Assembly (NCBI GenBank): GCA_029204225.1
Contig: CM055101.1
Coordinates: forward strand, 43,956,180 to 44,020,179
Direction of reading: 5' to 3'
From: Diphasiastrum complanatum
Taxonomy: Eukaryota; Streptophyta; Lycopodiopsida; Lycopodiales; Lycopodiaceae
Length of the DNA stretch: 64,000 nucleotides
Position numbers and translations under genes: made by a program. A model generated the notes under the pieces. That model was not told where the DNA came from and ran no database searches. It saw nothing but the letters and a program-made list of their open reading frames with translations. Within the stretch, counting starts at the first letter, position 1, and each line of letters opens with the position of its first letter. Below are positions 1,824-35,999 of the stretch, in pieces.

Positions 1824-2212
1824 CTCACAAATTGCTAATGTTTGTAAGCTTTGAATGCTGCAGAATCACAGTGCCAATTGAAACCAAGCAAATATTCGGT
1901 TAGAGACAAGCAACACACAACTTATCAAAACAAAGCCCAAATTAGGTTAATTGACCTGGGATCGTAGACATGTGATGCCATTGTAGTCCAACCACGTATT
2001 CTTTTAACATGGTCAAAGCACACCCATGAGTGCTCTAGATCAGGCCTGGGAATAGTGATCCTTGAAAAAAATCATATTGGCACTTCTCCTTGAGACGTAA
2101 AATGGAGTCTACTGAATTTGCGTTCGATTGGTTGTTTGTTCGAAATTCATCTATCCACTTTCTCAACCTGCACTTTACCAAGTCAAACGATGAAGAAACA
2201 AGTTTTAGGCTA

Positions 2213-4489
2213 ATCATTATAGAAGAATAATGAATCATCACAGAAGAATAATGATTCATTACAAAAGATAGCGTTCGATATCAAATCAAAACTAGATCGA
2301 ATGCAATCAATCTTACAATCTATTCGTATGGAAAATTTGCAATCACTGAAGGATGTGGAAGAGGCTAAGAAGGAGGAGACTAGGAGTAAGAAGCGAAAGC
2401 GGAAAAGTTGCAAGGATATTCAGACCGTTTCAGAAGGAGATTATCGAAATAGAAGAATTCGAGCATTCAAGTAAGAATACTTTGATTTTTTTGTAATTTG
2501 ATTAGTGACATATGGTTTTATTTTCTCTACTATGTTGTTCTACTAACTATCTAATTTTTTTTTGCAGATCTGCATTAGTATCTCATCAGTATATAAAGGA
2601 CAATGCATCAATTGGAATGTCGTTGGGCTCAATATTAACAGGCAAATCCACTGAGTGTATCATGATGAACAATAGGAGTTCCAATGTAAAGTCCAAAATT
2701 GCAGTCTCTTTGATGTTAGACATTCAGAAATTTTTAGATAAAACTATAGTTCAGGGTGTCTGTGATTTTGCTGGTATTAGCAGAGAAGCATATTCAACAA
2801 TATTTCAACTTATTAGGGATGCCTTTAAGCAAGTTCGAACTAGAAAAGTCCCTATCCCTAGGTCATATCACTTGAAGATAGAGAAGAAACATTGAACTTA
2901 AGTATGCCTAAAATCATTGGTACCCCATTTTATATAGAGGAAGTGTATGAAACTAATGGAAGATCCATGTCATATAATTCATCAAACAACTTCTTTGTTG
3001 ATCTAAATCACTTATTAACATACATGGTCACATTTTATGATATAACCTTAGAAAAGGTGAATGGTAAAATAATCATAGTACTTAAGTTAGACGAGTCAGA
3101 GATTGTGAAAGGGCAGAAGATGGAGAGAGTTAGTATAACTCTCATAAATGGTGCACTATCACAAACAATGGACCAAAGAGACTTCAAATTTAGTGTCCAG
3201 TCCGAAAATGGTATATGGTGGTTGGCAGCTTTTCAGGTGATTATTATTTTTATTAACTAAGTTTAATTCCTTACCCTGGCTCATAATTCATATTTAACTA
3301 AATTGGTTTTATGCATTGGACATGTACTGAAGGAGAATCACGATATATTATCATGGATATTCTCTAGGACATCTTACCCTCGGATTATCAAGGACCATAT
3401 GGAAGGAGGATTTCTCAGAGTTCCAGGAGTTGGAGACTTCCAAGTTGAATGGCACTTAGCAGGTGATTTAAAAACACTGAAATACATGTATAATGTCTCT
3501 CACGGTGCTACATCTAAACATCCTTGTTTATATTGCATGAAAATGGCAAAAGATGTAACTAGAAGTACAAGAATTACGAGAGAAAATGCAGATCCAAAAT
3601 GGAAGCCAGTATTGCCTATTCCCTTGAAAAATGTCTCTTCATGCAGAAGTTAGGATAATAGAAAAGCTCGTTTATCTTCATATAGTTTTTGCATGGAATA
3701 GTAAGCCAACATCAGTTGCGAAGGAAGCTATTTGTCGATTAGAAGATGTTTTATCAAAAGCAGGACTGCATAAGGGACATGTCAAAATACAAAAAGATAA
3801 AAAGCTTTCTGAAAAGTTAGGAAATATGCCAACTAAACCAAGCATCGGAGGAGCAAAAGCACGTCGATTCCTATCAAACCATATTGATAAGGATTCAAAC
3901 ATTTAACACTCAGTCTGGAAAGAAATTGTTGCTGCCACTGAAGACTTAGGAGTGACCGGCAAATCAAGATTATTGAAAGTTGATGTATGGAGAAAGCTTG
4001 ACAGTATGATTAAGATATTAAGAAAAGACAAATTTTTTGATAATGATAAGAGAGCTCTACAAAAGACTTGCGTCGATTTTGTTGATGCAGTATCAAAAGC
4101 ATGGGGAGAAGATCACATCACTCATTACATGGTTAGTATGCATGCTCAGAGCAGCTATCAATTAGATTATATATTTTGATCCAAGCATAAGACTGACATT
4201 ACGATTTTGACATGTGCAGCACATACTAAGAGATCATACAACATTTTTTGAAAACACATATGGAAGCCTAAGTGTCTGGTCATCACAAGGGATGGAGAAG
4301 TCACATTGGCAAGCACGGACAACATTTCATCGAAATACACAGCATGGAGGAACCAATGAAAAACGAAACTATATTTGCCAATTATTTCAGTGGTTCTACC
4401 ATAGAGTTCAAATTCGACAGATCACAAAATCCTCAAATTACGACAAATTCAGAAAAGCTTGCAAATTTATTGAGCAACATAGAAGCTAA
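2213..4489 (+). pseudogene. DDE-like transposase, spliced, family not recognised (copy 1)
   Basis: Four exons can be drawn: about 2213-2470, 2568-3236, about 3333-4131 and 4220-4489. Donors GTAAGA, GTGATT and GTTAGT are visible, and the 2470/2568 junction joins in frame (RIRAF-K-SALVSHQ). Exon 1 is basic (KKRKRKS, a likely nuclear signal). Candidate catalytic acids are the Asp in VLKLDESEIVKGQ, the Asp in EWHLAGDLKTLKYMY and the Glu in SSQGMEKSHWQARTTFH. After the second Asp comes HPCLYCMKM, a likely zinc-binding pair. The acid order fits an RNase H-fold transposase; this is inference. Copy 1 carries a TAG near 2217 and frameshifts near 2890 and 3630, so it is dead. Close homology to 16477-18079 lets these lesions be seen. 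Confidence 0.6.
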
Positions 4490-4555
4490 AAATTCAGAGA
4501 TACAAAGTTGCTACAAATGTAAATTGTATTCACAATTTTCAATATATACAAATCA

Positions 4556-5326
4556 TCATTTAAAGGTATCTGATTCATCCTCTTGTCCAATTGTTGTGCT
4601 ATCATGCAATAATTCTCTACTTGCATATGCATCCAGAAGATGCGCATTGTCCTTGTTACCACTCAATTCTATATATGTTGCATACAATGAATAATGGGAA
4701 CCTCTTAATGCTACATTCCCATCTACAAATCCTAATATGTTTAAAACATAAGATCTCTTCACAAAAATTATTTTATTTGCTCTCGCAAATTTATGTCCAC
4801 CTAAATAATAAGATAAGGCTTTCACAGCCATTATCATTGTCTCTCCAACTAGACTGAATTTGGAATGAGCAATGCAGATTTCATTGATTTGAAAGTGCAT
4901 CAAGTAGTGGCCGAGGCCACTATCCCTGTGGAAAGATGATGAATGTTGTCTGAAGCGCCCTCGACGAGTAGCAAAGTCATCGATAAAAAGTGCATTCTGC
5001 AATTACAAAATTGGAGTTTTTAGCACAAATTGAATTTTGCAAAAAACATACATCAGATAAACAGACGTACAGTAAAACTTTTAAACGTACGCATTCATCA
5101 TCATCTGCTGCAACTAGATCATGATGATCTATATTGTGACCACCAATTGAAGAAGAGTCATCAGCAAATTTCATAACCAATGGACGAGGGAACCCCAGCT
5201 GGGCTTGGAATGTAATAAATTCCTCATCAGAAGGCAAACTTCATCCATGAGCACTAACGTTTGCCATAGCCCAGGACAAACATTCCTCACCAGTCAGAAT
5301 TCCCTCCTCACCATCATAGTCAATGT
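4556..5326 (-). pseudogene. ORF2 of the unit, 3' exons (cut by copia insertion)
   Basis: Reading leftward, an exon 5326-5091 and an exon 4996-4556 are joined by a GTACGT donor and a TTGCAG acceptor in phase 0 (DDDEC-NALFIDDF). The product is acidic in the middle and then reads GRFRQHSSSFHRDSGLGHYL and ALSYYLGGHKFARANKIIF before its stop. A TGA at 5241-5243 interrupts it. I do not recognise a domain. The first exon runs straight into the copia 5' LTR at 5327. Its 5' part appears to resume beyond the element at 10738-11379, so the two pieces are likely one gene. It converges with the transposase, whose stop is only 66 bases away. Confidence 0.5.
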
Positions 5327-6118
5327 TGTTGGATTTATCTCCTCTACTCTCCTAAATCCTATTTTAATCTGCCTCCATTCATGTTGCATTTTTACTCATG
5401 TTGTCGCACAGTCTGCATATTTACATGTAAAATAAGACAGGCAAAAAACTCGACTGTCTGCATAAATACAAGTAAATTTCCACAGACGAAAAAGACGAAA
5501 AACACGACATTGTGTTTTTATACGTGATTTCTGACAAGCAAAATAGGCGACACTACCTTACAAAATGTCGAAGGTGCCCTAGGAAAAGCGAATGCACCCT
5601 GTAAATCAAATCCTAAGGCATTTCGTTAGAGTGTCACATTTTTCGCATCTTCACCAACGTTCATTTCAACAAAGGCTGACGTCGCAGCCTTTTCACGCTC
5701 ATCCCACACAATTGTGCTAACATATTTGACAACGACAACAGCCACCCACGATCTTCTACACACAGCACATCCACTTTGTAATTTCTTCATCCGCACACTG
5801 TAAAATTGTGTATATATCGAATACCACTTGCGTAATCAAACAATGAGGTGAATGTGTGTGTAAAATAATAGCATCAGAAGCTTATTAGAGATAGACAAAG
5901 TAGATGCCTTGCACATTGATTCTTTTGTATTGTCAGTAATAGGTTCATCCCTTTTGCAGATTGAATTAGCTTTGTAGAGCACGCGGTTTCGTCCGCTATT
6001 GTCTTGTGCTCCACAACATTATTGACATATATATTCTACTATACTTAATCTGATAACAGCTCTGTTGTTTTGCGTTCATATTTGTGTTGATATTGCTATG
6101 CTTTTCTTCATTTTGTCT
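5327..6118 (+). repeat. Copia 5' LTR, 3'-truncated
   Basis: It matches 9520-10312 closely and diverges after TGTCT at 6114-6118, where mid-gag sequence begins. The missing part corresponds to about 10313-10737 of the right LTR. Confidence 0.8.
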
Positions 6119-9100
6119 GAGTTACGGATATCCAGATCGGCCATGTATCCGAGGCTTATACATCGAAAGAGGTCTAGGACATCTTGAGCACACTATACGA
6201 AGTGCGAGATATAGCTTCCAAGCTACATCTCAAGCAGAAATTTTACTCCCTCAAGATGGCGAATGGTGATTCCTTGTAGAATCACATCAATCAATTCAAG
6301 AACTTGCTAAGGCAAATAGTCGCTGTCGGATCTGTCATAGACGATCAAGACGCAGTGATGCAACTGCTGACAAGCTTGCCAAGCTCATACGACAGCTGGG
6401 TGATGATCATCACGACACATCCAGAACTGACTCTTTCGAGAGGCATTCCTATGTTGTTGCAGGAAGACACGCGGAGGAATGAAGCCTCAAGTTCCTCAGT
6501 TGATTCTCACGCTTTATACACCAACAAGAGCACGACTAAGTAGAAGAAGAAGAAGAAAGGCCCAAAGCAATCAAAGCCGGACCAGAAATCAGCACAGCAC
6601 AAAGAACATTCTAATCCGCAAACGAAGAAGAAGCTGTTTTGCAGGTACTGCAAGCGAAACAACCATGAAATTCAAGACTGCAGAATACTGCAAGCAAAGA
6701 ACAATAACAAGGGGTGGTCGAATCAAGTGGAAAATGCAGCTACGGAAGCTCCACATCCTATTCAAGAAGGGATCATGATGCCTTCATGACCAGCCATCAA
6801 AGAGCATCCGACGACAGTTCTTGGTTCCTGGATTTCGAAGCCACTCAGCACATGACCAGCCTCATTGGTTGTTTCAAGTCCTATGCACCTTATAGTACCA
6901 AGAAAAATGTTCACCTTGGTGACAATAGCACACAAGCTATTAAAGGTGAAGGTACTGTAAGTTAAGCTTCGCAAATGATCAGTCTAAGCTACTTTCTAAA
7001 GTCTTGTATGTACCAAATTTTTCTACGAATCTGCTCTCTGTAAGCAGAATCACAGATCTAAGACATAGAGTAGAATTCGAATGTGATCAATGCAAAGTAG
7101 TTGATAGGACAGGCAAGATCCTAGCACTCGAAAAGAGGCATGGATACTTGTATAAATTAACTCATTGCTTTTCTACCTCTAGTTAGGTGCTCAGTACTTC
7201 TATTCATGCAAATAAAAGTTTACTTTGGCATTATAGACTTGGTCACTTGAATCATGTTGTTGTACAACAAATGTCTAGACAATCTATTGTTCTTAATCTC
7301 GAATATCCTCGTGATAAAGTCGAGTTACCTGTCTGTCAAGACTGTCTAGTTGGTAAACAAACTAGAAAACCATTTAAATCAAGCCATCAGCACATTGCTA
7401 GAGGATTGTTAGACATTGTACATTCAGACATTTGTGGCCCGATGAAAAATCCTTCACTGAAGGACGCAAAGTATTTTATAACTTTTATTGATGAATTTTT
7501 TAGAAGGACTGTGGTGTAAAGAAGAAATCAGAAGCCTTCAATTGCTTGAGAATATTCAAGGAGCATGCAGAGAAGGAGACTGGAAGGACGATCAAGGCCC
7601 TAAGATCAGACAATGGTGAAAAATACATCTCTATCAAGTTTAAGGAGTACTGCCAAAGCCAAGGCATTGAGCAGCAATTCATCACTCACAGTCCTCAGTC
7701 TAATGTATGCTAGCGCATACATCGCTGCCCAAGAGATTCTGGGCCGAAGCTGTCTCCACTGCAGCTTATGTCTAGAACAGATGTTCGACCCAGGCCCTCT
7801 CAGGCAAGACACCCCACGAGGTGTGGACAGGCTCTAAGCCTTCTGTGAAGAACCTAAGATTGTTTGGATGCGTTGCCTACGCGCAGATCCCAAAAGACAC
7901 GAGGAAGAAATTGGACTTCCAAGGTCTCAAGACCATCGTGATTGGATATACTTCATCTGATATTACATACAAACTATATGATCCTGATACCCAGCAAATC
8001 CTGTATAGCCGGGATATAGTCTTTATCGAGGATTAGTTCGTCGACATCAAAGGCAAGGATATTGCTCCAGGAGGACCTTCAGCACCTGCCATTGACACGA
8101 CTGTCCGAGCTTCTGGCTCAGGCGTGTCTATTGTCGACCCACTTTTTGATAGCGAATCAGACGAAGACGTTGCTGCTACCCAGCAAAAAATCCCATGAGT
8201 GGTTCATCAGTCAAATCCTCCCAGAAGATCAAACTGATTGCACACACAGGCCACAAGGTATACTCTTGAGTCTGCATGTCTCTTGATACAAAAACCGACG
8301 ATAGTCCAAGAGGCACTCAGCCAACCAGACTCTGATCTATAGAGAGAAGCTATAGACAGAGAGTATTCCTCTCTGATCAGACGTGGTCACTAGTCGAAGC
8401 TCCTATTGGCTGCAATATCATTGATTGCAAATGGATCTTTAAGATCAAATACAATGCCAACGGAGCAATTGATCGTAGGAAGGCAAGACTGGTAGCACGA
8501 GGATTCACTCAGATTTCCAATGTCGACTACAACGAGACTTTCAGTCCAGTAGTCAAGCATTCGTCGATCCGAGCACTCCTGTCTTATGCTGAAGCTGCCG
8601 ACCTCACTGTTTTTAGAGTTCAACATGACTGATCTGGACGAAGCTCACTTCTATCTAGGCATTCAGATCCACAGAGACAGAGTGAGATGACTGATTTACA
8701 TCACTCCACAAAGGTATCTTCACAATGTTCTAAACATATACAATCTAATGAATTGTAAATTAGCTCACTCACCAAGGATCCAGGCTTTCATTTGTCAAAG
8801 GACCAATGTCCCTAGACTCAAACAAGAAGAGGAGCAGATGAGAGAGTATTTTTATCAATTGATACTTGGATCTCTCATGTACGCAATGGTCTATACAAGA
8901 CCAGATATCTCTATTCCAGTAAGCTCACTCAGCCAATATATGGCTAATCCTGGCATTACCCATTGGAACACTCTCATAAGAGTCATGAGGTATATTCGAG
9001 CTACCATGGACCAGTGCATCTGCTATGGAGAGGTCAGCAACAACAATCTTCATCAGCTCAGTGGATATTCTGATGCAAGCTGAGGAGGATATGTAGACAA

Positions 9101-9512
9101 TCGTAAGTCCACATCTGGATTTACATTCTTCTTCAACGGCGGTCCTGTCTCATGGAACAGTCGTAAGCAAACCTCTATCGCTCTTTCTTCTACGGAAGCA
9201 TAATACATTGCTGCTTCTCAATCTATTAAGGAAGCGTTTTGGTTGAGAAATTTACTGTCAGACATTAATCTGTATCAATATAGTGCTATTGCCTTATCGG
9301 CCAACCCTAGATTTCACTCTAGGAGTAAGCACATTGAGATCAGATATCACTACATAAGGGGAAAGGTTCTCAACAAGGAGGTGAGCTTAACGTACTGTAG
9401 AACGCAGGACATGGTTGCAGATATATTCACAAAGACATTAAGTGTTAATGCACACAACAAATTTTGTGCATTGCTTAGTCTGAAGATCAAGGCATTCACG
9501 AATCCAGATTAA
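6119..9512 (+). pseudogene. Copia gag-pol polyprotein remnant
   Basis: Fragments appear in copia order across several frames. The gag core (LYEVRDIASKLHLKQKFYSL, then LLTSLPSSYDSWVMII) is followed by a CCHC knuckle CRYCKRNNHEIQDC near 6642. The protease region reads WFLDFEATQHMT where DSGA is expected, so its active site looks lost. Next come the gag-pre-integrase HLNH and CQDC cluster, integrase HSDICGP and LRSDNGEKY, RT (KARLVARGFTQISNVDYNET), and RNase H with SGYSDAS and KHIEIRYHYIRGK. The RT palm with YVDD is deleted between about 8625 and 8640, where the sequence jumps to the C-terminal FYLGIQIHRD region. Multiple stops and frameshifts are present. Not functional. Confidence 0.85.
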
Positions 9513-9519
9513 GGGGGGG

Positions 9520-10737
9520 TGTTGGATTTATCTCCTCTACTCTCCTAAATCTTATTTTAATCTGCCTCCATTCGTGTTGCATTTTTACTCATGTTGTCGC
9601 ACAGTCTACATATTTACATGTAAAATGAGACAGGCGAAAAACTTGACTGTCTGCATAAATGCAAGTAAATTTCCACAGGCAAAAAAGGAGAAAAATGTGA
9701 CATTGTGTTTTTACACGTGACTTGTGACAGGCGAAAATGACGACACTGCCTTATAAAAAGTCGAAGGTGCCCTAGGAAAAGTGAAGGCACCCTGTAAATC
9801 AAATCCTAAGGCATTTCGTTAGAGTGTCTCATTTTTCGCATCTTCAACAACGTTCATTTCAGCAAAGGCTGACGTCACGGTGTTTTCACTCTCATCCCAC
9901 GCAACTGTGCTAACATATTTGACAACAACAACAGCCACCCACGATCTTCTACAGATAGCACATCCACTTTGTACTTTCTTCATCCGCACACCTGTAAAAT
10001 TGTGTATATATTGAATACCACTTGCGTATTCAAACAATGAGGTGAATGTGTGTGTAGAATAATAGCATCAAAAGCTTATCAGAGATAGACGAAGTAGATG
10101 CCTTGCACATTGATTCTTTTGTATTGTCAGTAATAGGTTCATCCCTTTTACAGATTGAATTAGCTTTGTAGAGCACGCGGTTTCGTCCACTATTGTCTTG
10201 TGCTCCACAACATTATTGACGTGTATATTTTGCTATACTTAATCTGATAACAGCTCTGTTGTTCTGCATTCAAATTTGTGTTGATATTGCTATGCTTTTT
10301 TTCATTCTGTCTAACTCTCTCTTGTTGCTCAATCTGGTAATCTATCCTTGGCGAATTATTATTAGTCTAGTTGTTGACGACTAATATTTAGTCTTGCCAT
10401 TCGCGACTGATTATCAGTCGAGCTCAGTCTAGCTCTTCGTGAATCATTTGCGACTAATAATTTGTCTAGTTGTTCGTGACAAATTATTTTTCTGATGTTT
10501 TGTTAATGTTTGGCTATGTAATCAGATCGACCGTGATTTCTATCACTAATGTTCTGTTCATTTCTGATAGGCATAGTCATGCTTAGGGAAAGAGTAATAT
10601 AGCTCATTCCGCTGCGCACGAACACTTTCTGTTCGAGTTCGTTTCTCGTTTGAGTTTCGAGTTCACTTCTTTTCGTGTTCGTTTTCTTTTTCGAGCTATT
10701 TTAGTTCCTCACACTCACACACACTCTTTCTCCAACA
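9520..10737 (+). repeat. Copia 3' LTR, full length (about 1.2 kb)
   Basis: It starts TGTTGGATTT after a purine tract and ends CCAACA at 10737. The same 3' end occurs inverted at 36000 in the second copy of the host unit, next to the same host bases, which fixes the LTR end. It contains a short run of interspersed GACTAATA/ATTAGTC motifs around 10360-10500. Confidence 0.8.
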
Positions 10738-11379
10738 ATTCCATCTTCATTTATATAATATTTTGGCAAATCAAAAAAGCATTTAGAATGTACACTAGCA
10801 ATATCTTCCTCAGTATTGGCATTAGAGCCAATGAAAGCATCCCTCAACATATCAGTATCTACACTCAAATATTCAGTCTCTTTATCAGGAGTATCAATCA
10901 AAAAATGACTGATGTCCTTTATGGAATGTTTAGTAGTGGAGGATGAAGGATCTCAGTATCAAGAATCAAAGTATCTGACTCTATTGGGATTTGTACCAAA
11001 AGGAAAAACACAAATCCGGTCTGATACTCTAGAAAATGACATTTTCGATTACAAACATTACATTCACTGGAATTTTTAATTGATCAAAAAGTTTAGTGTA
11101 CATCCTGTCTAGCCGCTGCTTATAATGGAAAAAAGTATGTACAAGATCAGTGAAATGCATAAACGACAAATTAGACGTAGAGATTGGAGGGATACTGACT
11201 ATATCCCTGAATCTGATATATTGGTCATAAAAAATATTAGAACTCTGTTGTGCCGTACTGAACACATTTAGAAAAGGCCGGAAGAGGGACTTGAAGTACT
11301 CTATGCGCTCAGTTATACCGAACTCAGAGAGAAAACTAGACAACAAACACTCACAACTAGGATCAGAGGAGGAAGCCAT
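10738..11379 (-). pseudogene. ORF2 of the unit, 5' part (unknown protein)
   Basis: It starts at ATG 11377-11379 (MASSSDPSCECLLSSFLSEF). The frame runs through YDQYIRFRDIVSIPPIS and LVHTFFHYKQRLDRMYTK, loses one base near 11080, and continues with a Cys cluster CNVCNRKC and then IDTPDKETEYLSVDTD. It ends at the copia 3' LTR. Compared with 35330-35999, this copy lacks about 125 bases just before the LTR and has at least two frameshifts. Together with 4556-5326 it probably formed one longer gene. I recognise no known family; the Cys cluster may bind zinc. It is divergent from the C48 gene across a repeat-rich spacer. Confidence 0.45.
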
Positions 11380-11429
11380 TGAATAGTATCGGATCTGTGC
11401 GAGAGGGGAGTAACCGAAGATGAAGGGAC

Positions 11430-12230
11430 AACACTACGCGCACACAAAAGCGATATGTACGAACGACTATCGCTCTTGTGCGCGTAAAGAAACATGATAC
11501 AATAAGGGAACAAACAAGGCGCGCACAGAAGCGATATGTGACGAAAATAGATATAAAATATGCGCGCAGAGAACCGAGCGGAACCCGAGAAAGTTAAAAA
11601 AAAAAAAAAAGGTTTTCAGAAATCGTGCCCTTTATAGTCATCTCACACGTGCGAGTCAACAGTCAACTGCCCACTTGTCGTACGATGATTCGCTGAAAAT
11701 CGTCCACACTTGTGAAGCCTTACAGAATGCATGTGTCACATTTTGATTCGTTGTCACTTGACGCATGTCGTAGGAAGATTCTGTAAAAAATATTCCACAC
11801 GTGTGAATCCGTATAAGAAGCATTTGTCACATTCTGATTGGTTGCCGCTTGACACGTGTCGTAGGACGATTCAAAAAAATATCTCACACGTGTGAAGCCA
11901 TGTGTCACATTTTGATTTGATGGAGTGTGACACATGTCGATGGCTTATTCGTTACTTTTCAGACACGTGCGGACGACATGTGCAACCACACACGTGCGAA
12001 AAAATCGTTTCCACATGTTCGCAAGCTCAGAGGCAGTTTCACTTGTTTTGTTCCGATTTTCATGTCATATCGCTTCTTTGTGCGCCCTCTTTCCTCCGTT
12101 ATCTTCGTCTCCTTCTGCGTGCGCACAAGAGCAATATTACCACCGTACATATCGCTTTTGTGCGCGGTTAGCTTTATGTCTCATTGTTTTTGTTTTCCAC
12201 ACTCGCACAAGAGCGATACATCCTATACTG
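11430..12230. promoter_or_regulatory. Divergent intergenic spacer with iterated short motif
   Basis: This spacer lies between ORF2 (-) and the C48 gene (+). A motif close to CGCACAANAGCGATATGT recurs in both orientations near 11435, 11468, 11519, 12065, 12121, 12146 and 12204. The inverted copy of the unit keeps the same motif near 34605, 34659, 34688, 34740 and 35279. Such clustered iterons between divergent genes could be binding sites for the element's own protein or shared promoter elements; this is inference. Confidence 0.45.
11640..11960. repeat. Tandem repeats of about 85 bp containing CACACGTGTG palindromes
   Basis: Three to four degenerate units contain, in order, a CACACGTGTGAAGCC-like palindrome, TGTCACATTTTGATT, and GACACGTGTCGTAGGA. 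They are kept in the inverted copy at about 34845-35185. CACGTG is the core of plant G-box and E-box sites. Confidence 0.6.
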
Positions 12231-12671
12231 CCCTCATGTCTAGGGTCAAACAAAACTGGAGGGATTTCTTCTCTCTTGGGGCTGTATCCACTAGTATTCT
12301 TATTGTTAATCCTCCATGGTAGACCAGGCATAACAGGAGCAGATGGCTCTCTGAGATTAAGAAATATCAGAGATCCACCTTGCTCTTAGTACCCAGAGCC
12401 CCCTTCTACATAATTGTCCATCTGATTACCTGAGATAATCTGTAGAGTGCTGTCAGCTTCACACCTGGAGCATTGTAGTGTTTGTAGGAGTCCACGGAGG
12501 ACTATTTGGCTCTCTTTTTTGAGGATTCTTTTTTGCTTTGCATCCATGCCAAGCAAGTGACCATAATGCCCAAAGATTTTCAAATCCTACATAGAATGAG
12601 GGAGAGATTTTCAAATCCAAATAGAAGAGATTGGTTTTACTCTTAATTTTAGAATTCCAGATTGTTTGCAG

Positions 12672-13519
12672 ATGAAGGGTAGAAGGGCCTCTATTAGCAA
12701 TCTAGTGATTGAGGTTGGTCTCCCCTTACTGCAATATGATATAGCAAGGTATTCCATGAAAGAAGTGTCGCTTCTCAGCAATTTTTTTCTGCAAGGCATC
12801 AAGGACAACAATGACACTTTGTCGCAATGTATCCTTGGTGCTTGCTCTCCTGTTGTGAAGTTTTTGTTGATGCCATATCATACCAAGTATGTCTATCTCT
12901 TTACATGTCAAATTCATTACTTGTCTACTTCTTTACTTGTAATTACTGTATCGTTTATCTAATGAAATTCTTCATGGTTTTTTGCAGTGATCATTGGAGC
13001 TTGATTGTAATTTCTGTAAAAATCACAGATAATAATATCGTAAATCTTTTTTGTGTAAAGATGAATTTTGCCAACAACACACACAAGGATATTGACTCGC
13101 TGCTATATTTTCCAATAGAGAATCCCACGGCAGGGAAATGTGAAATTGTGATCATTGAGGTTATCATTGAACATTTCTGGTGTATTTTTGTTTATCATCA
13201 TCGTTAAGCATCAGTACTCTCATCCCATTATTAATCAATTGAATGTATTGCAGACACCCCAACAAAATGACTCATTTAGCTGTGCATGGTGTACTCTATA
13301 CAATGCAAAGTTATTTTTCAAGTGGTACAATCTTCAGGAGGATGTTGATATTTCAAAGGTGAGTTATTAGCCCTTTCTATTTTATCTTCATGTAAACAAT
13401 TGTTTGTTATTAATATTTATCTAATACACTGTTTATTGCAGTTTGCCCTAGGCAATTATATTGTTGGCGAAGTGTACAAATTTCGACAGGAGATCATTTT
13501 TAGTCTATTTGCCAGGTGA
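12672..13519 (+). CDS. C48 (Ulp1/SENP-like) cysteine peptidase, spliced
   Basis: Exons 12672-12886, 12988-13159, 13254-13358 and 13442-13519 join in frame through GTATGT/TTGCAG, GTTATC/TTGCAG and GTGAGT/TTGCAG sites. The second exon carries DHWSLIVISVK, the catalytic His box of C48 peptidases. The third carries PQQNDSFSCAWC, matching the Gln (oxyanion) and catalytic Cys box. The last reads GNYIVGEVYKFRQEI before TGA. The usual Asp after the His box (HLDS) is not clear; the aligned stretch reads LFCVKMN. Family members remove SUMO-like proteins from targets, and such domains are carried by some plant transposons (Kaonashi-type MULEs). Upstream exons are likely but not identified. This piece is absent from the second copy of the unit. 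Confidence 0.65.
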
Positions 13520-13914
13520 ACTACTGGACCAAAGACTGATGTTGGGCCGCCTAAGCCAAACGATGTTCAGATTTTAAATGAGGCTGGGCAATTTGTAAAT
13601 ACCCAAGCTGAATAGATAGACACATAGAAATGGAATCATAGAGATTATAGACATACAGAAACAAAATAATTTGAACAGATGTACAAAATCCCCAAATTTG
13701 GGTGATTTTCTACTGAATACAGATACCAATTTGTAAAATTGATTGTATGGATTTTGATTGTTCTTCTACAATGTAAATATCTATTGGAAGATCCTTGCGG
13801 GGTGTTGTGTTTTCCTATCTATTTCATATCTGCATGAAAGATAAGCAGCTTGTTAATTTCTCTATTCTCTAAAAAAGTTACATATATGATTATTGACTGA
13901 TTTACAAATCAGAT
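13520..13914. other. Non-coding spacer between convergent genes
   Basis: It lies between the peptidase stop and the last ORF4 exon. It is AT-rich, with several T-runs and weak poly(A)-like words. No gene is seen. Confidence 0.5.
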
Positions 13915-14096
13915 TAAAATCTTACAAGCTTTCCATTGATAATGAATCTGAAGTGTTCTGGTAGAATTTCATTGTGCATTAAGCCCAGCTCTTGTTTGAT
14001 ATAGCTCAAGCTCCAATGATCCTCCACTATAATTGTCGTTAGCATATCTTCATTGTTGAAAATGTGGACTTCTTTTTTATCTGTGCGATCATCCAT
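13915..14096 (-). CDS. Ubiquitin-like-looking exon of ORF4
   Basis: Reading leftward from ATG 14094-14096, the frame gives MDDRTDKKEVHIFNNEDM, then WSLSYIKQELGLMHNEILPE, and ends HFRFIINGKLV. A possible donor (CTT/GTAAGA) follows directly, so it may be an exon rather than a complete ORF. The alternation of hydrophobic strands, a helix (SYIKQEL) and a final FRFIINGKL hairpin resembles a beta-grasp (ubiquitin-like) fold, but this is judged by eye and is only suggestive. It faces the C48 peptidase gene. Whether it belongs to the upstream ORF4 exons is inferred from strand and spacing. Confidence 0.35.
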
Positions 14097-14279
14097 TTAA
14101 AGGTCTTGATCGAGTGGCATTCATGTCCCACTTATTCGTTTCCATCTCTAGAAACTAAATGTAAGACTAAGCATTTGTCTTGCAATGCAATAACGAAATA
14201 TCATAGATGATTTTTTAATTCTACATTCAATATCTCCAACTACCTTGCATTCTTAACCCACATCCATCAGATCTTAATG

Positions 14280-15117
14280 AGTGTCATCTGGCATATCCTT
14301 ACAAACATATAATGTTGGGGTTCTACGAACATTTGCATTTGAAAAAAAAATCTCAAATACATATAAGGATAGGAACCAACTTAATCTATTGACTTTTGAT
14401 CCAGTGCTAGCTTTCATTGAGTTTTTCAAATCTAATAGTAATTTGCATCTAAAATATTCTGACACCATACTATCAGGTGCAAGCCATTCATCACTTCCAA
14501 AAATGTGGCAGTGGTATATTTTCAAGCTTTCAGAAACCTCCATGCATATCTGGAATGTACTTGGACTCATAGAAAAATATACCACTATCTACAAGCTCCT
14601 TAGAAGTTCTTCCTTTGTATTGTAATTTTCCAATATCCGAATGAATCACATCCAATATACTTGCTAGGGATTGTGTTGACTCCCATTCGCTTATGCTGGA
14701 TGGATATAAATCTGCAAGAATGCAATAATATATGATAACTGATATGATTTCAACAAGTTTCAAAAGCATGAATGTTATAATATAGATCCCAAAAATTTTA
14801 AACTTACAGTTACATTTTTGGCGATCATGAATATTGAAATCTTGTAGATAGAGCTCTGAATGCATGTAGACATGCTGAATCAAATATTCTGAGATTGATT
14901 GCCCTCCTAGAGAAGTCCTGAAATCAAGGATCTTTGCTTTCCAATATGATTTGAATGTTATCTTTGCTTTCTTTTTTGGTCTAAACGTGCCTTTTGAGGA
15001 TGGATGCAGTAGAACCCATGAGTTTTTGATATATCTTGTTGGTTTCCAAAATCCGGCATCATCCTTCTCATTGTGAAAAATCACTGATTCAATTTTAGAT
15101 CTTGGTCTTCTGGCCAT
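14280..15117 (-). pseudogene. ORF4 of the unit, unknown protein (spliced)
   Basis: The first in-frame ATG is at 15115-15117 (MARRPRSKIESVIFHNEKDD). Exon 1 continues with GFWKPTRYIKNSW, a basic PKKKAKITFKS stretch and YMHSELYLQDFNIHDRQKC, then a GTAAGT donor near 14815. A second exon (LYPSSISEWESTQSLA, SILDVIHSDIGKLQYKGRTS) begins after CTTGCAG near 14712. The frame then shifts after KYIPDMHGG and continues as HIFGSDEWLAPDSMVSE and NANVRRTPTLYVCK with a GT donor. The same frame switch occurs in the inverted copy, so it predates the duplication or hides a splice I cannot place. No family recognised. The basic segment suggests nucleic-acid contact or nuclear entry. Confidence 0.45.
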
Positions 15118-15593
15118 ACCGATTGCTTCCAAAGTTTAGCGCCAAATTCCCAAATCTATGAAATGCCAAATCGACTCAATGTTATATGATACTTATTCAA
15201 TGTGAAAGGATAACTAGACCACAGTAACAACATGTGGTAACTATGCTTACTGTCTAACTATGATGCATGTCACCGATTCCTATGCATGTGATGACTTGTT
15301 GTTGGCAAACATGTGTAGTTTGAAATCTATGAACATATTAACTAGTGTGGTTAAATAATTAACTAGAGACAATGTTGTCGGGCAGATTCACACGTTCCGG
15401 ACAGACACTATCCACCAATAGCATTTTCCCATCCTGCCTGGTGGCAAATTTAAAAGCTAATTTTTATAACATTATTATTTCTATCTACACTACATAGATT
15501 TCAAATATATGCAATTTCATTGGGCCACATGGCAGACGAAACTAAGAGAAAAAAAACATCTTTAGAAAGGGTCTTTTTTTATTTTGAAACTCC
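15118..15593. repeat. Right terminal non-coding segment of the unit
   Basis: About 475 bases without an ORF, closely matched in inverted orientation at 32874-33350. Similarity stops at GAAACTCCT 15585-15593, which marks the right edge of the duplicated unit. It probably contains the ORF4 promoter. Confidence 0.5.
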
Positions 15594-15644
15594 TCTAATG
15601 TGTTAACATTTTCATGAGAAGTAGTAGCTAAAGCTACACATTTA

Positions 15645-16476: not shown

Positions 16477-18079
16477 GGCCTGGAAATAGTGATCCTTGAA
16501 AAAAATCATATTGGCACATCATGATGTCCTTGAGACGTAAAATGGAGTCTACTGAAGCTGTGTTTGATTGGTTGTTTGTTCGAAATTCATCTATCCACTT
16601 TCTCAACCTACACTTTACCAGGTCAAACGATGAAAAAACAAGTTCTAGGCTAATCATTACAAAAGAATAATGAATCATCACAGAAGAATAATGATTCATT
16701 ACAAAAGGTAGCGTTCGATATCAAATCAAAACTAGATCGAATGCAATTAATCTTACAATCTATTCATATGGAAAATTTGAAATTACTGAAGGATGTGGAA
16801 GAGGCTAAGAAGAAGGAGGCTAGGAGTAAGAAGTGAAAGCGGGAAAGTTGCAAGGATATTCAAACCCTTTCAAAAGGAGGTTGTTGGAATAGAAGAATTC
16901 GAGCATTCAAGTAAGAATACTTTGATTTTTTTGTAACTTGATTAGTGACATATGGTTTTATTTTTGCTACTATGTTGTTCTGCTAATTATCTAATTTTTT
17001 GTTGCAGATCTACATTAGTATCTCATCAAAATATAAAGGACAATGCATCAATTGGAATGTCATTGGGCTCAATATTGACAGGCAAATCCACTGAGTGTAT
17101 CATGATGAACAATAGGAGTTCCAATGTAAAGTCCAAAATTGCAGAGTCTTTGATGGTAGACATTTAGAAATTTTTAGATAAAATTATAGTTCAAGGTGTC
17201 TGTGATTTTGCTGGTATTAGCAGAGAAGCATATTCAACAATATTTCAACTTATTAGGAATGCCTTTAAGCAAGTTCGAATTAGAAAAGTCCCTATCCCTA
17301 GGTCATATCACTTGAAGACAGAGAGGAATACATTGAACTTAAGTATGCATAAAATCATTGGTACCCCATTTCATATAGAGGAAGTGTATGAAACTGATGC
17401 AAGATCCATGTCATATAATTCATCAAACAACTTCTTTGTTGATCTAAATCACTTATTAACATACATGGTCACATTTTATGATATAACCTTAGAAAAGGTG
17501 AATGGTAAAATAATCATAGTACTTAAGTTAGATGAGTCAGAGATTGTGAAAGGGCAGAAGATGGAGAGAGTTAGTATAACTCTCATAAATGGTGCACTAT
17601 CACAAACAGTGGACCAAGGAGACTTCAAATTTAGTGTCCAATTCGAAAATGATATATGGTGGTTGGCAGCTTTTCAGGTAATTATATTATTTATTAACGA
17701 AGTTTAATTCCTTACCCTGGTTCATAATTCATATTTAACTAAATTGGTTCTATGGATTGGACAAGTACTAAAGGAGAATCATAATATATTATCATGGATA
17801 TTCTCTAGGACATCTTACCCTCGGATTATCAAGGACCATATGGAAGGAGGATTTCTTAGAGTTCCAGGAGTTGGAGACTTCCAAGTTGAATGGCACTTAG
17901 CAGGTGATTTAAAAACACTGAAATGCATGTACAATGTCTCTCACGGTGCTACATCTGAACATCCTTATTTATACTGCATGAAAATGGCAAAAGATGTAAC
18001 TAGAAGTAGAAGAATCACTAGAGAAAATGCAGATCCAAACTGGAAGCCAGTATTGCCTATTCCCTTGAAAAATGTGCAT
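16477..18079 (+). pseudogene. DDE-like transposase, copy 2, 3'-truncated
   Basis: It aligns base by base with 2043-3632, including the intron at 2471-2567 (here about 16912-17008). It keeps KLDESEIVKGQ, WHLAGDLKTLKCMY and HPYLYCMKM but lacks the second half with the candidate Glu. Lesions differ from copy 1: a TAG at 17164-17166 here, but no frameshift at the position of the copy 1 break near 2890. At 18074-18080 it switches without a stop into a gypsy reverse transcriptase. The missing right part of this unit lies inverted at 32874-36535. Confidence 0.7.
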
Positions 18080-26129: not shown

Positions 26130-27960
26130 TTCTTGATGGACAGATATGTCAGGAACTTGAAAAAACTCAGTTTTTTGGCACTTTTTGGCACTTTTTCTTG
26201 GATATTTTAAAATTTGACCATTGAATCTCTACAAAACTTTCACAGTAGCTATATCTAGCTTAGATCTACCTATAAAACTCTTTGAGAAGGTTACTTCCTA
26301 GAAGATCTCAAGAAATCATGGAAAAAGTGCATTTTTTTGGGGGTTTTTTTGCAAAATTTTAAGATTTTATGGGAAACAACTCTCGCAGACTGGTATGTGT
26401 TTGTATCTTAGTCAGATTCAGCTGCTCACCAATCTGCAAGAGTTACTTCCTAAGGAAACTCAAAACATCTTGAAAAAAGTGCATTTTTTGGGGGTTTTTT
26501 TGCAAAATTTTGAGCTTTTCTGGGAACAAACCCTCACAGACTGATATACACTTTTATCTCAGTCAGATTCACCTGATCATCAAGCTTCAAAAGTTAATTC
26601 CCAAGGAAACTTAAATTTTTTTGAAAAAAGTGCATTTTTTTGTGGTTTTCTTGCAAAATTTTAAGTTTTTCCTACAAAAAACCCTTGAAGACTGGTATTC
26701 ACTTGTATCTTAGTTAGATTCACCTGCTCACCTAGCTGCGAGAGTTACCTCTAAAGGGAACTCAAAAAATCTTGAAAAAAGTGCATTTTTTTGTGATTTT
26801 TTTGCAAAATTTTAAGATTTTCAAGGAAAAAACCCTTGCAGACTGGTATTACTTGTATATCAGTCATATTCACCTTCTCACCAAGCTTCAAGAGTTACTT
26901 TGAAAGGAAAGTCAAAAAATCTTGAAAAAAGTGCATTTTTTTGGGGTTTTTCTGCAAAATTTTAAGATTTTCTGAAGAAAACCCTTGCAAACTGGCATGA
27001 ACTTGTATCTCAGTCATATTCAACTGCTCACCAAGCTTCAAGAGTTACTTCTCAAGGAAACTTAAAAAATATTGAAAAAGGTGCATTTTTTTGTGATTTT
27101 TTTGTAAAATTTTAAGATTTTCTGGGTACAAACCTTTGCAGACTGGTATGCACTTGTATCTCAGTCAGATTCACCTGCTCACCATTTTGAGAGAGTCACT
27201 TCCCAAGGAAACTCAAAAAATCTTGTAAAAAGTGCATTTTTTGGGGGTTTTTTTGCAAAATTTTAAGATTTTCTGGGAACAAACCCTCGCAGACTGGTAT
27301 GTGCTTGTGTCTCAATTAGATTCAGCTGCTCACCAAGCTGCAAGAGTTACTTCCCTAGAGAAATAAAAAAATCTTGAAAAAACTGCATTTTTTTGTGGTT
27401 TTTTGGCCAAATTTTGAGATTTTCTGGGAACTAATCTTCGCAGGCTGGTATGTACTTGTATCTAAGTCAAATCCACTTGCTTACCAAGCTGCAAGAGCTA
27501 CTTCCCAGAGAAACTCAAAAATTTGCTGTCTGAGAAGGTTCTAGGCCACTTTTTGCTCTTGGAAACCTTCACAGGGGCACTTTTTTTGGGATCTAACTCT
27601 CGCAGACTTCTCTGTGTCCTTGTCTCAGTGAGATGGAACTTCAGAGAGCTCTGCGAAGGTTACTTCCCAAGGAAACTCAAAAATTTGTTGTTTGAGAAGG
27701 TTCTAGGCCATTTTTTGCTCTTGGGAACCTTCACAGAGGCACTTTTTTTGGGATCTAACTCTCGCAGACTTCTCTGTGTCCTTGTCTCAGTGAGATGGAA
27801 CTTCATAGAGCTCTGCCAAGGTTAGTTTTGAGTTTTGAAAAAAAAAATTATTTTTACAAAGGATTTTTGAATTTTTATGGGTTTTTCTCTGTTTTTTCAA
27901 AATCTATTGGGAAGTAACCTTCGCAGGCTTCTATGCAGGTCTAGAACAGTACCGTGGAGC
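26130..27960. repeat. Tandem repeats of about 150 bp, then about 162 bp
   Basis: Each unit holds CTCGCAGACTGGTATG, a TATCTCAGTCAGATTC word, CAAGAGTTACTTCC, a GAAAAAAGTGCATTTTTT stretch and GCAAAATTTTAAGATTTTC. Units start near 26387, 26536, 26684, 26832, 26981, 27132, 27284 and 27437. Two longer, more similar units follow from about 27530 and 27690. No gene lies here; ORFs at 27523-27825 are read-through of the repeats. Confidence 0.85.
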
Positions 27961-32873: not shown

Positions 32874-33352
32874 AGGAGTTTCAAAATAAAAAAAGACCCT
32901 TCCTAAAGATGTTTTTTATTTTTTTCTTAGTTTTGTCCGCCATGTGGCCCAATGAAATTGCATATATTTGAAATCTACGTAGCGTAGATAGAAATAATAA
33001 AGTTATAGAAATTAACTTTTAAATTTGCCACCGGGCAGGATGGGAAAATGCTATTGGTGGATAGTGTCTGCCTCGAACGTGTGAATCTGCCCGACAACAT
33101 TGTCTCTAGTTAATTATTTAACCACACTAAAATATGTTCATAGATTTCAAACTACACATGTTTGCCAACAACAAGTCATCACATGCATAGGAATCGGTGA
33201 CATGCATCACAGTTAGACAGTAAGCATAGCTACCACATGTTGTTATTGTGGTCCAGTTATCCATTCACATTGAATAAGTATCATATAACATTGAGTCGAT
33301 TTGGCATTTCATAGATTTGAGAATTTGGCGCTAAACTTTGGAAGCAATCGGT

Positions 33353-34130
33353 ATAGCCAGGAGACCAAGATCTAAAATTGAATCAGTGATTTTTCACAAT
33401 GAGAAGGATGATGCCGGATTTTGGAAACCAACAAGATATATCAAAAACTCATGGGTTCTACTGCATCCATCCTCAAAAGGCATGTTTAGACCAAAAAGAA
33501 AGCAAAGATGACATTCAAATCATATTGGAAAGCAAAGATCCTTGATTTTAGGACTTCTCTAGGAGGGCAATCAATCTTAGAAGATTTGATTCAGCATGTC
33601 TACATGCATTCAGAGCTGTATCTACAAGATTTCAATATTCATGATCGCCAAAAATGTAAATGTATCAGTTATCATATATGTATTGCATTCTTGCAGATTT
33701 ATATTCATCCAGCATAAGCGAATGGGAGCCAGCACAATCCCTAGCAGGTATATTGGATGTGATTCATTTGGATATTGGAAAATTACAATACAGAGGAAGA
33801 ACTTCCAAGGAGCTTGCAGATAGTGGTATATTTTTCTATGAGTCCAAGTACATTCCAGATATGCATGGAGGTTTCTGAAAGCTTGAAGATATACCACTGC
33901 CACATTTTTGGAAGTGATGATTGGCTTGCAGCTGATAGTATGGTGTCAGAATCTTTTAGATGCAAATTACTATTAGATTTGAAAAACTCAATGAAAGCTA
34001 GCACTTGATCAAAAGTCAATAGATTAAGTTGGTTCCTATCCTTATATGTATTTGTAGATTTTTTTTCAAATGCAAATGTTCGTAGAACCCCAACATTATT
34101 TGTTTGTAAGGATATGCCAGATGACAATAT
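33353..34130 (+). pseudogene. ORF4 copy 2 (unknown protein)
   Basis: It closely matches 14280-15117 in inverse. The start ATG is changed to ATA at about 33353. Segments GFWKPTRYIKNSW, FKSYWKAKILDFRTSLGGQS and YMHSELYLQDFNIHDRQKC are kept, then SISEWEPAQSLAGILDVIH and HIFGSDDWLAADSMVSE. A TGA follows NSMKAST. Homology ends at GCCAGATGAC near 34128. Same frame switch as in copy 1. Confidence 0.5.
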
Positions 34131-34235
34131 TGTAGCACTTGTGAGGCCTCTTGGTGGATAGGTTGCTTGTGAGGCCTCTTGGTGGGTAGGTTGGTCCTAT
34201 CAAGGGGTTTGTCCTGGGGAGCATCGGGTTCACCC
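34131..34235 (+). other. Filler DNA at an internal deletion
   Basis: It holds an imperfect direct repeat (CTTGTGAGGCCTCTTGGTGG, twice, about 30 bases apart) that has no match in copy 1. It sits exactly where about 1.7 kb of the unit is missing, as left by end-joining with templated insertion. Confidence 0.5.
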
Positions 34236-34599
34236 TTGTCAAGTCTACAAAATCTCTCCCTCATTCTATATAGGATTTGAAAATCTTTGGGCATTATGGT
34301 CACTCGCTTGGCATGGATGGAAAGCAAAAAAAAGCCAAATAGTCCTCCGCGGACTCCTACAAACACTACAATGCTCCAGGTGTGAACCTGACAGCACTCT
34401 ACAGATTATCTCGGGTAATCAGACGGACATTTCTATAGAAGGGAGCTCTGGGTATTATGAGCAAGGTGGATCTCTGATATTTCTTAATCTCAGAGAGCCA
34501 TCTGCTCTTGTTACGCAGGCCTAGTCTACCGTGGAGGATTAACAACAGGAGAGAAGAAATTCCTCCAGTTCTGTTTGACCCTAGACATGAGGGCAGTAT

Positions 34600-35310
34600 A
34601 GGACGTATCGCTCTTGTGCGAGTGTGGAAAACAAAAACAACGAGACAGAAAGCTAACCGCGCACAGAAGCGATATGTACGGTGGTAATATCGCTCTTGTG
34701 TGCACGCAGAAGGAGACGAAGATAATGGAGGAAAGAGGCCGCGCAGATAAGCGATGTGTCACGAAAATCGGAACAAAACAAGTGAAACTGCCTCCGAGCT
34801 CGCGAAGATGTGGAAACAATTTTTTCACACATGTGTGGTTGCACGTGCCGTCCGCACGTGTATGAAAAGTAACGAATCAGCCATTGACATGTGTCACACT
34901 CCATTGAATCAGAATGCGACACATGGCTTCACACGTGTGAAATATTTTTTGAATCATCCTACGACACGTGTCAAGCGACAACCAATCAGAATGTGACACA
35001 TGCTTCTTGTACGGATTCACACGTGTGGAATATTTTTTTTATCGAATCATCCTATGACATGTGTCAAGCGACAACGAATCAAAATGTCATGCATTCTGTA
35101 TGGCTTCACACGTGTGGACAATTTTCAGCGAATTATCGTATGACACGTGGGCAGTTGACCGTTGACTCGCACGTGTGAGATGACCATAAAGGGCACGATC
35201 TTCGAAAACCTTTTTTTTTTACTTTCTTGGGTTTCGCTCATATCGGTTCTCTACACGTATTTTATATCTATTTTCGTCACATATCGCTTCTGTGCGGGCC
35301 TTGTTTGTTC
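34600..35310. promoter_or_regulatory. Divergent spacer, copy 2, with iterons and CACACGTGTG repeats
   Basis: Counterpart of 11430-12230. The TATCGCTCTTGTGCGAG and GCGCACAGAAGCGATATGT motifs and the CACACGTGTG tandem block (34845-35185) are kept in order although the neighbouring genes are broken. Confidence 0.45.
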
Positions 35311-35329
35311 CCTTATTGTATCCTGTTTC

Positions 35330-35999
35330 TTTTTCTAAATGTGTTCAGTTTGGCACAACAGAGTCCTAATGTTCTTTATGACCAATATATCAGATTCAGG
35401 GATATAGTCAGTATCCCTCCAATATCTGCGTCTAATTTGTCGTTTATGCATCTCACTGATCTTGTACATACTTTTTCTCATTATAAGCAACGGCTAGACA
35501 AGATGTACACTAAAAATTTTTATCAATTTATAAATTCCAGTGAATGTAATGTTTGTAATCGAAAATGTCGTTTTCTAGAGTATCAGACCGGATTTGTGTT
35601 TTTCCTTTTGGTACAAATCCCAATAGAGTCAGATACTTTGATTCTTGATACTGAGATCCCTTCATCCTCCACTACTGAACATTTCATAAAGGATATCAGC
35701 CATTTCTTGATTGATACTCCTGATAAAGAGACTGAATATTTGAGTGTAGATACTGATATGTTGAGGGATGCTTTCATTGGCTCTAATGCCAATACTGAAG
35801 AAGATATTGCTAGTGTACATTCTAAATGCTTTTTTTATTTGCCAAAATATTATATAAATGAAGATGTGTATATTTCAATGGCAGATTTATGTGTTTTTTT
35901 TTATTATCGTGAGGAAGAGGTGCTTTGTTTATTGTCAAGCACCATTATTGAGTTCTCTGACATTGTTGATTTTGAAACCGAAGACTTAGTGCTAGGAAT
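35330..35999 (+). pseudogene. ORF2 copy 2 (unknown protein, Cys cluster)
   Basis: Counterpart of 10738-11379, but in one uninterrupted frame here: QYIRFRDIVSIPPISA, SSECNVCNRKC, IDTPDKETEYLSVDTDMLRD and a C-terminal part missing from copy 1 (ADLCVFFYYREEEVLCLL, EFSDIVDFETEDLVLG). About 185 bases that carry the ATG in copy 1 are deleted just upstream, joining at a T-rich run near 35330. The frame runs into the copia LTR at 36000 and stops at 36034. Function unknown. Confidence 0.5.

Follow-up and report, generated by a model that had tools for sequence, protein, structure and literature searches.

The locus and its genes

Transposons can encode enzymes for editing chromatin marks, and Ulp1 domains occur in some plant elements. 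The locus described here, in a window of 64,000 nucleotides (the whole stretch of Diphasiastrum complanatum DNA that we analyzed), raises the question of what such a protease does for an element that keeps it. A preliminary description had placed at 2043..15593 a four-gene mobile unit of spliced ORFs on alternating strands: a DDE-like transposase, ORF2, a SUMO-protease-type C48 peptidase, and ORF4 with a possible ubiquitin-like partner. All four genes were located there in a unit designated copy A (2043-15600), with ORF2 running from 11379 to 4559 on the minus strand and the others as listed below. The earlier description had overlooked an ORF for histone H3 at 12236-12610.

2223..4489, plus strand: transposase-like gene; exons ~2223-2471, 2569-3233, 3335-4130, and 4209-4489 (splice sites inferred)
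4559..5326, minus strand: ORF2, C-terminal part; recurs in other copies, no Pfam family
~5327..10742, no strand assigned: nested Ty1/copia element within ORF2, foreign to the transposon; LTR pair, junction common to fragment B
10743..11379, minus strand: ORF2, N-terminal part
12236..12610, plus strand: histone H3 portion of the H3-C48 gene (Pfam Histone, E 8.6e-17; PDB histone H3, E 4.4e-18)
12609..13519, plus strand: C48 (Ulp1-type) part; exons ~12609-12886, 12988-13159, 13254-13358, and 13442-13519 (splice sites inferred)
13917..15117, minus strand: ORF4, with the C-terminal stretch earlier described as ubiquitin-like; one frame in copy L039
15566..15600, no strand assigned: right terminal inverted repeat, ending CTAATG (alignment to the 35-bp family repeat)
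16477..18075, plus strand: fragment C, which covers about half the transposase and is 94.5% similar to copy A
32874..35994, minus strand: fragment B, oriented opposite to copy A, with ORF4, a piece of ORF2, and a broken H3

Copy A is heavily damaged. Its transposase has lost the N-terminal exon and has frame breaks near 2889 and 3640 and a stop near 3904. The H3 ORF contains five in-frame stops (four TAG, one TGA), four of them common to copy A and fragment B; the linker between H3 and C48 is gone, and the C48 part falls below the Pfam cut-off (E 0.019). The LTRs of the nested copia element (5327-6118 and 9520-10312) are 92.6% alike. What had been taken for a second damaged copy with the same gene order is really two fragments, B, in the opposite orientation, and C; C48 and transposase were sought in fragment B, and neither was found. 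The boundaries also required revision. Position 2043 is a breakpoint where A and C cease to match, C continuing into a copia gag, and the right end lies at 15600. Inverted-repeat and local-alignment searches inside copy A found no ends, and its left end is missing there.

A large transposon family with a recurring gene module

Copy A belongs, in decayed form, to a large family of cut-and-paste-type DNA transposons. The family terminal repeat matched the 1.74-Gb host genome 2417 times (1177 + 1240), whereas a control matched 0 times. Three copies of intact length (8.1-9.5 kb) each carry four genes in the order transposase(+), ORF2(-), H3-C48(+), ORF4(-), and all three are complete to perfect 35-bp inverted ends, CATTAG...CTAATG, with 5'-CA..TG-3' termini. 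Comparison of empty and filled sites, as proposed earlier, gave joined flanks that were gap-free across the junction, with a target-site duplication (TSD) of 0 bp, at all three testable insertions (L038, L040, and L042). Copy L041 is flanked by TCA on both sides.

The gene module recurs throughout the copies retrieved. C48 adjoins H3 in 29 of 30 fetched H3 loci (the exception is L027), and part of ORF2 occurs inside the ~1.5-kb flank of H3 in 23 of the 30; at least five pairs among these loci are at least 99.5% alike and may be duplicates or haplotigs. Nine longer copies (L034-L042) all carry the transposase, in part, together with ORF2 and H3-C48, and eight carry ORF4, which is absent from L034. 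Both gene order and fusion are kept in a diverged element, E4, whose H3 identity is 47%. The other copies bear out a mobile unit in which a transposase, a SUMO-protease-type C48, and two further genes keep a recurring order, and the co-occurrence elsewhere that had been put forward as a test holds across the 30 loci, L034-L042, and E4. In element E3, H3 is present and a search for C48 found none, so the fusion is not universal. The protein searches each scored 150 candidates, out of 6583, 5643, and 10569 at first look, and give no copy numbers.

The ubiquitin-like partner found no support in this comparison. In L039, ORF4 is a single frame of 283 aa that includes the exon in question, and its C terminus has no ubiquitin-like match by Pfam or PDB profile, which together speak against a separate ubiquitin-like gene.

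Placement of the transposase

The transposase had been described as matching none of the familiar MULE, hAT, CACTA, PIF, or Mariner patterns. In keeping with this, no Pfam family matched, MULE included; there were also 0 PHROG families, and no relatives were confirmed in IMG/VR. However, a position outside all known groups is doubtful: an alignment of four rows (A7) has invariant D18, D111, C131, C134, H337, H342, and E362, giving the pattern D, D, C(2)C, H(4)H, E, in which we infer that the D and E residues would be catalytic and the C and H residues would form a zinc site. The CMCT clade (CACTA/EnSpm-Transib-RAG1) combines D, D, C(2)C, H(3-4)H, E with 5'-CA..TG-3' ends and a TSD of 2-5 bp (PMC12730594). 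The window family shares this residue pattern and these ends; it differs from the clade in its 0-bp TSD at three of three tested sites, the missing Pfam match, and its histone-protease fusion.

A gap-free 52-residue match to the catalytic end of RAG1, with 13-14 identities, is centered on H(4)H and E; none of 100000 shuffles was as good, for a segment that had been picked for matching. Together with the C(2)C that follows the second D and the CA..TG ends, this match suggests a putative RAG1/Transib/CACTA-type DDE enzyme with a C(2)C...H(4)H zinc site, a pointer to the clade short of statistical proof. It also weighs against a new superfamily unrelated to CACTA, Transib, and RAG1, whose RAG1-like motif would be convergent or due to chance. 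We consider such a superfamily rather unlikely, while noting that it would fit the lack of Pfam and PHROG families, the lack of a TSD at the three sites, and the pLDDT of 31 for a structure model of the transposase front half. The profile searches lean the same way, being insignificant throughout: with unaltered rows against the PDB, RAG1 ranked fourth of six (E 0.89), below three unrelated proteins (best E 0.03); its E across PDB profile searches was 0.64-1.5, with RAG1 absent from the list of the first profile, and Pfam RAG1 matched one of three rows only (E 0.056).

A histone H3 fused to a SUMO-type protease

In intact copies, histone H3 is the predicted N-terminal part of the C48 protein. 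The stop-free protein of L037 matched both Pfam Histone (E 9.2e-28) and Peptidase_C48 (E 6.1e-11; 43.0 bits versus a cut-off of 20.7), each above cut-off. First exons of 331-367 aa are open in L034 and L036-L039; a single open frame in this exon runs from H3 (a tail-like start and the complete fold) through a basic linker into the beginning of a Ulp1/SENP-type protease. Counted by eye, 47 of the 150 H3 matches listed (of 6583 candidates) are stop-free. Reading TAG as Gln in H3 is unneeded because other copies are without stops.

On the protease side, all four PDB matches of a C48 profile built from unaltered rows are Ulp1/SENP proteins (E 0.077-0.98). Alignment A6 has invariant Gln and Cys, with His in five of six rows and Asn in place of the expected Asp (assignment by eye). 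The catalytic Cys is gone in copies L038 and L011 and the catalytic His in L028.

Between subfamilies, where dS is saturated or close to it, median omega is 0.07 for the H3 fold (49/49 pairs), 0.31 for the linker (42/49 pairs), and 0.04 for C48 (dS saturated). Judged from these codon ratios, the H3 and protease parts are shown to be under purifying selection between subfamilies, strong on the H3 fold. Within the window, omega for H3 between A and B is 1.09, from few changes and with scattered ORF-by-ORF values.

These ratios bear on one alternative account of the fusion, in which pieces of host H3 and ULP genes were passively captured (Pack-type transduplication) and are useless to the element. 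Plant transposons commonly capture pieces of host genes, and these usually end as pseudogenes (PMC13317346); the window H3 with its shared stops would fit this account. The H3 selection result nevertheless makes passive capture a strained reading, and the stop-free matches and the retention of the fusion in E4 also speak against it; we regard it as highly improbable.

A second alternative grants the histone a function of its own. As a decoy it would soak up H3/CENH3 chaperones, or as a targeting device it would steer integration to certain chromatin, and the protease would mainly mature or free H3. Tail and fold are indeed kept in the transposable element (TE) rows, as is H3 in E3. Residues R83, H113, K115, R116, V117, T118, and D123 are kept in five or six of six TE rows; R49, R63, and R72, the DNA-contacting arginines, have been replaced in most or all rows. 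Five of seven diagnostic plant-CENH3-type residues, for example in LIPxAPF, occur in five TE rows, the majority of those compared, a likeness to CENH3/CENP-A that would also suit a decoy. Yet C48 is constrained as strongly as H3 and adjoins it in nearly every locus, and we hold this alternative to be possible rather than probable.

Discussion

The best overall explanation, to which we assign a probability of about 0.5, is a decayed copy of a cut-and-paste family with a selected H3-protease fusion that would act on chromatin. Weighing against it are the Asn at the expected catalytic Asp, the copies that lack the catalytic Cys or His, the changes at R49, R63, and R72, the H3 of E3 for which no C48 was found, and the broken H3 of the window. 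That selection kept the H3-C48 protein suggests that the element would use its own histone to act on host chromatin. The H3 part would pair with host H4 and be loaded into chromatin, where it could tether the protease to nucleosomes; the tethered protease would strip chromatin proteins of SUMO or a similar modifier, and this removal might protect the element from silencing or flag chromatin for integration. The counter-silencing proposal is made by analogy with Vandal MULEs that bear Ulp1 and fungal transposons that bear TET, for which such a role has been proposed.

The fusion offers a handle on why plant transposons retain SUMO-type proteases, as the histone would show the protease's place of action. 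The Ulp1-bearing Vandal/MULE elements (Kaonashi, KIU) are likewise plant DNA transposons with a C48 domain, there an accessory gene that is possibly anti-silencing (PMC13317346, PMC6117577). They are non-TIR elements with Ulp1 in a VANC-type gene, whereas the window family has TIRs and a different transposase, and its C48 is joined to a histone. Fungal transposons bearing TET/JBP and SET-bearing HarbingerS/MuDR elements also carry their own chromatin or DNA-mark proteins (PMC12730594); those are mark-editing enzymes, whereas the window family carries a nucleosome component plus a protease. Searches of the open-licence PMC literature listed no transposon with a conserved histone under selection that is joined to a SUMO-type protease, and we agree with the preliminary description that the unit is unusual, the fusion being its most remarkable feature.

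If the histone derives from CENH3, the biology of the element would be tied to centromere identity. In humans, CENP-A chromatin is reported to be maintained by the SUMO protease SENP6 (PMC6981222). Conceivably, then, a CENH3-derived histone with a deSUMOylating protease would replace host H3 in chosen chromatin, whether that of the element's copies or that of its insertion targets, and strip SUMO there, its own chromatin state resisting silencing or directing integration. We put this version forward tentatively. The TE histone differs from CENH3/CENP-A in being protease-fused and present in many copies, its overall scores are mostly nearer canonical H3, and the tree does not place it with CENH3.

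Spy elements, which belong to the PIF/Harbinger-ISL2EU group, insert without a TSD. The window family shares this trait with them at its three tested sites, and no similarity of the window family to that group was found. TSD-less insertion by a possibly RAG1-like enzyme is a second oddity of the family.

A histone gene in the window copy

The window (C10:43956180-44020179 of the 1.74-Gb assembly searched, 5176 contigs) starts with the tail of a kinase-like gene, whose Pfam Pkinase match (E 2e-4) falls short of the cut-off, and carries numerous copia- and gypsy-like frames; tandem repeats of period ~151, then 162 bases, occupy 26252-27812. The decayed transposon near its start, copy A, has the spliced genes in alternating orientation that the preliminary description had reported. 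All four genes listed there are present, but a histone H3 ORF between ORF2 and the gene for the C48 (Peptidase_C48) domain had been overlooked.

Transposon-derived features of the window
2043-15600: copy A; transposase-like (+, spliced), ORF2 (-), C48-like (+), ORF4 (-)
5327-6118 and 9520-10312: LTR copies (92.6% alike) of a nested copia that splits ORF2 of copy A
12236-12610, +: histone H3 ORF of copy A, between ORF2 and C48; five in-frame stops
16477-18075, +: fragment C
32874-35994, -: fragment B

The H3 ORF matches Pfam Histone (E 8.6e-17) and, in the PDB, histone H3 (E 4.4e-18); the top 60 of 175 PDB sequences at E ≤0.001 are all named histone. Four TAG stops in H3 are common to A and B, three of them at Gln (CAG) of canonical H3 or intact copies, a pattern that methylated-cytosine decay would give. 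The copia LTR junction (...CCAACAATTCC) is also identical in A (10743) and B (35994), and past it copy A lacks ~128 bases of ORF2 present in B. These shared stops and the shared junction indicate that both descend from one already broken, interrupted copy. H3 omega between A and B is 1.09, a value typical of dead copies. A perfect 16-nt inverted repeat (12989-13004/14006-14021) pairs the C48 His-Trp motif with the ORF4 C-terminus, possibly by chance.

Intact copies fuse H3 to a SUMO-type protease domain

At L034 and L036-L039, loci fetched from the same genome, a single open frame of 331-367 aa joins H3, a basic linker, which is gone from the window copy, and the first part of C48. With downstream exons joined by eye, the L037 fusion is a stop-free protein of 449 aa in which Pfam Histone covers residues 27-123 (E 9.2e-28) and Peptidase_C48 residues 316-437 (E 6.1e-11), each scoring above cut-off. 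All four PDB matches of a C48 profile of six unmodified rows are Ulp1 or SENP (E 0.077-0.98). Across these rows the active-site Gln and Cys are invariant, His is kept in five, and an invariant Asn stands at the position assigned to the usual Asp; Tyr replaces the Cys in L038 and L011, both outside the six-row set. Protease activity of the predicted C48 domain is plausible, not assured.

Comparison of two seven-copy sets by Nei-Gojobori counting gave median omega values, rough because of saturation, of 0.07 for the H3 fold (range 0.02-0.17, 49/49 pairs, median dS ~3), 0.04 for C48 (49/49 pairs, dS saturated), 0.31 for the linker (42/49), 0.30 for the transposase core (21/49), 0.15 for ORF2 (35/49) and 0.20 for ORF4 (14/49). 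The lower omega of the H3 fold than of the linker stands within sets too: the fold has medians of 0.21 and 0.23, with individual pairs reaching 1.1, and the linker 0.57 and 0.78.

A multicopy family with one gene order

The H3 query found at least 150 genome matches spread over many contigs (E 1.8e-54 to 7.4e-41; 150 scored from 6583 first-look candidates), 47 of the 150 listed being free of stops by eye, and a transposase-exon query likewise at least 150 (10569 candidates). Thirty H3 loci were fetched, including at least five pairs alike at 99.5% or more; C48 is present in 29 (exception L027) and an ORF2 piece in 23. ORF2, H3-C48 and a transposase that is incomplete in some are present in all nine longer copies, and ORF4 in eight, always in one order and orientation, which bears out the recurrent four-gene unit proposed earlier. 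Adjoining the main element of L039 (reverse complement, 802-1834) is a second, more diverged H3-like gene starting MMARTKSIARA. The best C48 match of the genome, L001 (C5:76129325), has an open frame of 257 aa and resembles a host deneddylase/SENP8-type gene.

The diverged element E4 (C9:67126000-67137500) retains the order transposase (+), ORF2 (-), H3-C48 (+), ORF4 (-). Its identities are 47% for H3, 28-32% for C48, ~30% for ORF2 and 43% for ORF4; a good part of its transposase is missing. Another, E3 (C4157; L043 with L048), combines a related transposase with ORF2-like and ORF4-like genes, the former on the other strand, and with an H3 preceded by a long proline-rich N-terminus; no C48 was found in it. 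Further related elements at L044 and L045 likewise carry an ORF2-like gene on the other strand and an H3 with such a proline-rich extension at its N-terminus; no C48 was found there.

Termini and insertion sites

L040 (8091 bp), L041 (9451 bp) and L042 (9371 bp) are bounded by perfect 35-bp inverted repeats (CATTAGAGGAGTTCTCAATATCAAAAAGACCCTTT), closely matched by the right end of copy A at 15600. A 32-base part (≤3 mismatches) has 1177 + 1240 genome matches, and none when read backwards. Of 83 exact matches to the terminal repeat listed on C1, 27 by eye crowd above 95.0 Mb (95.0-101.6 Mb) and 14 lie at 65.1-66.7 Mb. Joined flanks align gap-free at the junction to L035 for L042 (131 columns, 71.8%), and entirely gap-free to the window's own copia for L038 (223 columns, 70%). 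Those of L040 align through the junction to other repeats, starting at base 111 or 114, which leaves only 7-10 informative bases on the left side. Target-site duplications (TSDs) were absent at all three of these sites; L041 has TCA on both sides.

Affinity of the transposase

The preliminary description had seen no fit of the transposase to MULE, hAT, CACTA, PIF or Mariner patterns. No Pfam or PHROG family matched it, but motifs and CA..TG ends of the CMCT clade (CACTA/EnSpm-Transib-RAG1) are present. RAG1 was absent from the PDB matches of a first profile, second (E 0.64) after a chitinase with a second profile, and fourth of six (E 0.89) with unmodified rows, behind U3 snoRNP protein 10 (E 0.03), chitinase and myosin; Pfam RAG1 reached E 0.056 for one of three rows and another family E 0.1 for two of three. 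Judged by database statistics, the putative RAG1 match amounts to nothing. At the catalytic end it is gap-free (ITnYlHktlaHvpeiverdGSigaWaSeGnE vs ITHYMHILRDHTTFFENTYGSLSVWSSQGME), 13 of 52 residues being identical in the window sequence and 14 in that of E3, and none of 100000 shuffles was as good, for a segment picked because it matched. C(2)C stands 20 residues after the second conserved D, and H(4)H 25 and 20 residues before E. Marks of the clade are C(2)C, H(3-4)H, CA..TG ends and TSDs of 2-5 bp (PMC12730594); this transposon shares both motifs and the ends, whereas the three sites above show no TSD. The transposase is best described as working like members of this clade and probably related to them, rather than as a member.

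Proposed mechanism

We infer that, probably, the transposase would cut and join at the CA..TG repeats, while the H3-C48 protein would enter chromatin by way of its histone part and strip SUMO or a like modifier from it. Precedents are Ulp1 domains retained, for reasons unknown, in anti-silencing Vandal MULEs (PMC13317346, PMC6117577) and SENP6 acting in CENP-A maintenance (PMC6981222). No transposon-encoded histone was listed in searches of open-licence PMC literature, a scope outside which Repbase Reports and most subscription journals fall.

Residues and origin of the element histone

A rice CENH3 query gave at least 13 genome matches at 67-69%, of which the one fetched (L047) is canonical H3, and at least 137 others at 48-57%, of which L043-L046 were read. 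Element H3 starts (MDRRKQTRRD, MSRVKQNRRD, MKQTARLTT) echo the H3 tail ARTKQTARK. R83, H113, K115, R116, V117, T118 and D123 are kept in five or six of six element rows; R63 is gone in six, R49 in five and R72 in four. At seven columns cleanly separating three canonical H3s from three plant CENH3s, CENH3-type residues number five in five element rows, four in E4, three in E3 and one in human CENP-A. L047 was the one reference taken from this genome; a CENH3 origin is a lead. Against it, overall scores of element rows mostly favour canonical H3, with E4 scoring best against rice CENH3, and in a tree all rows except E3 stand apart from both canonical H3 and CENH3 on long branches.
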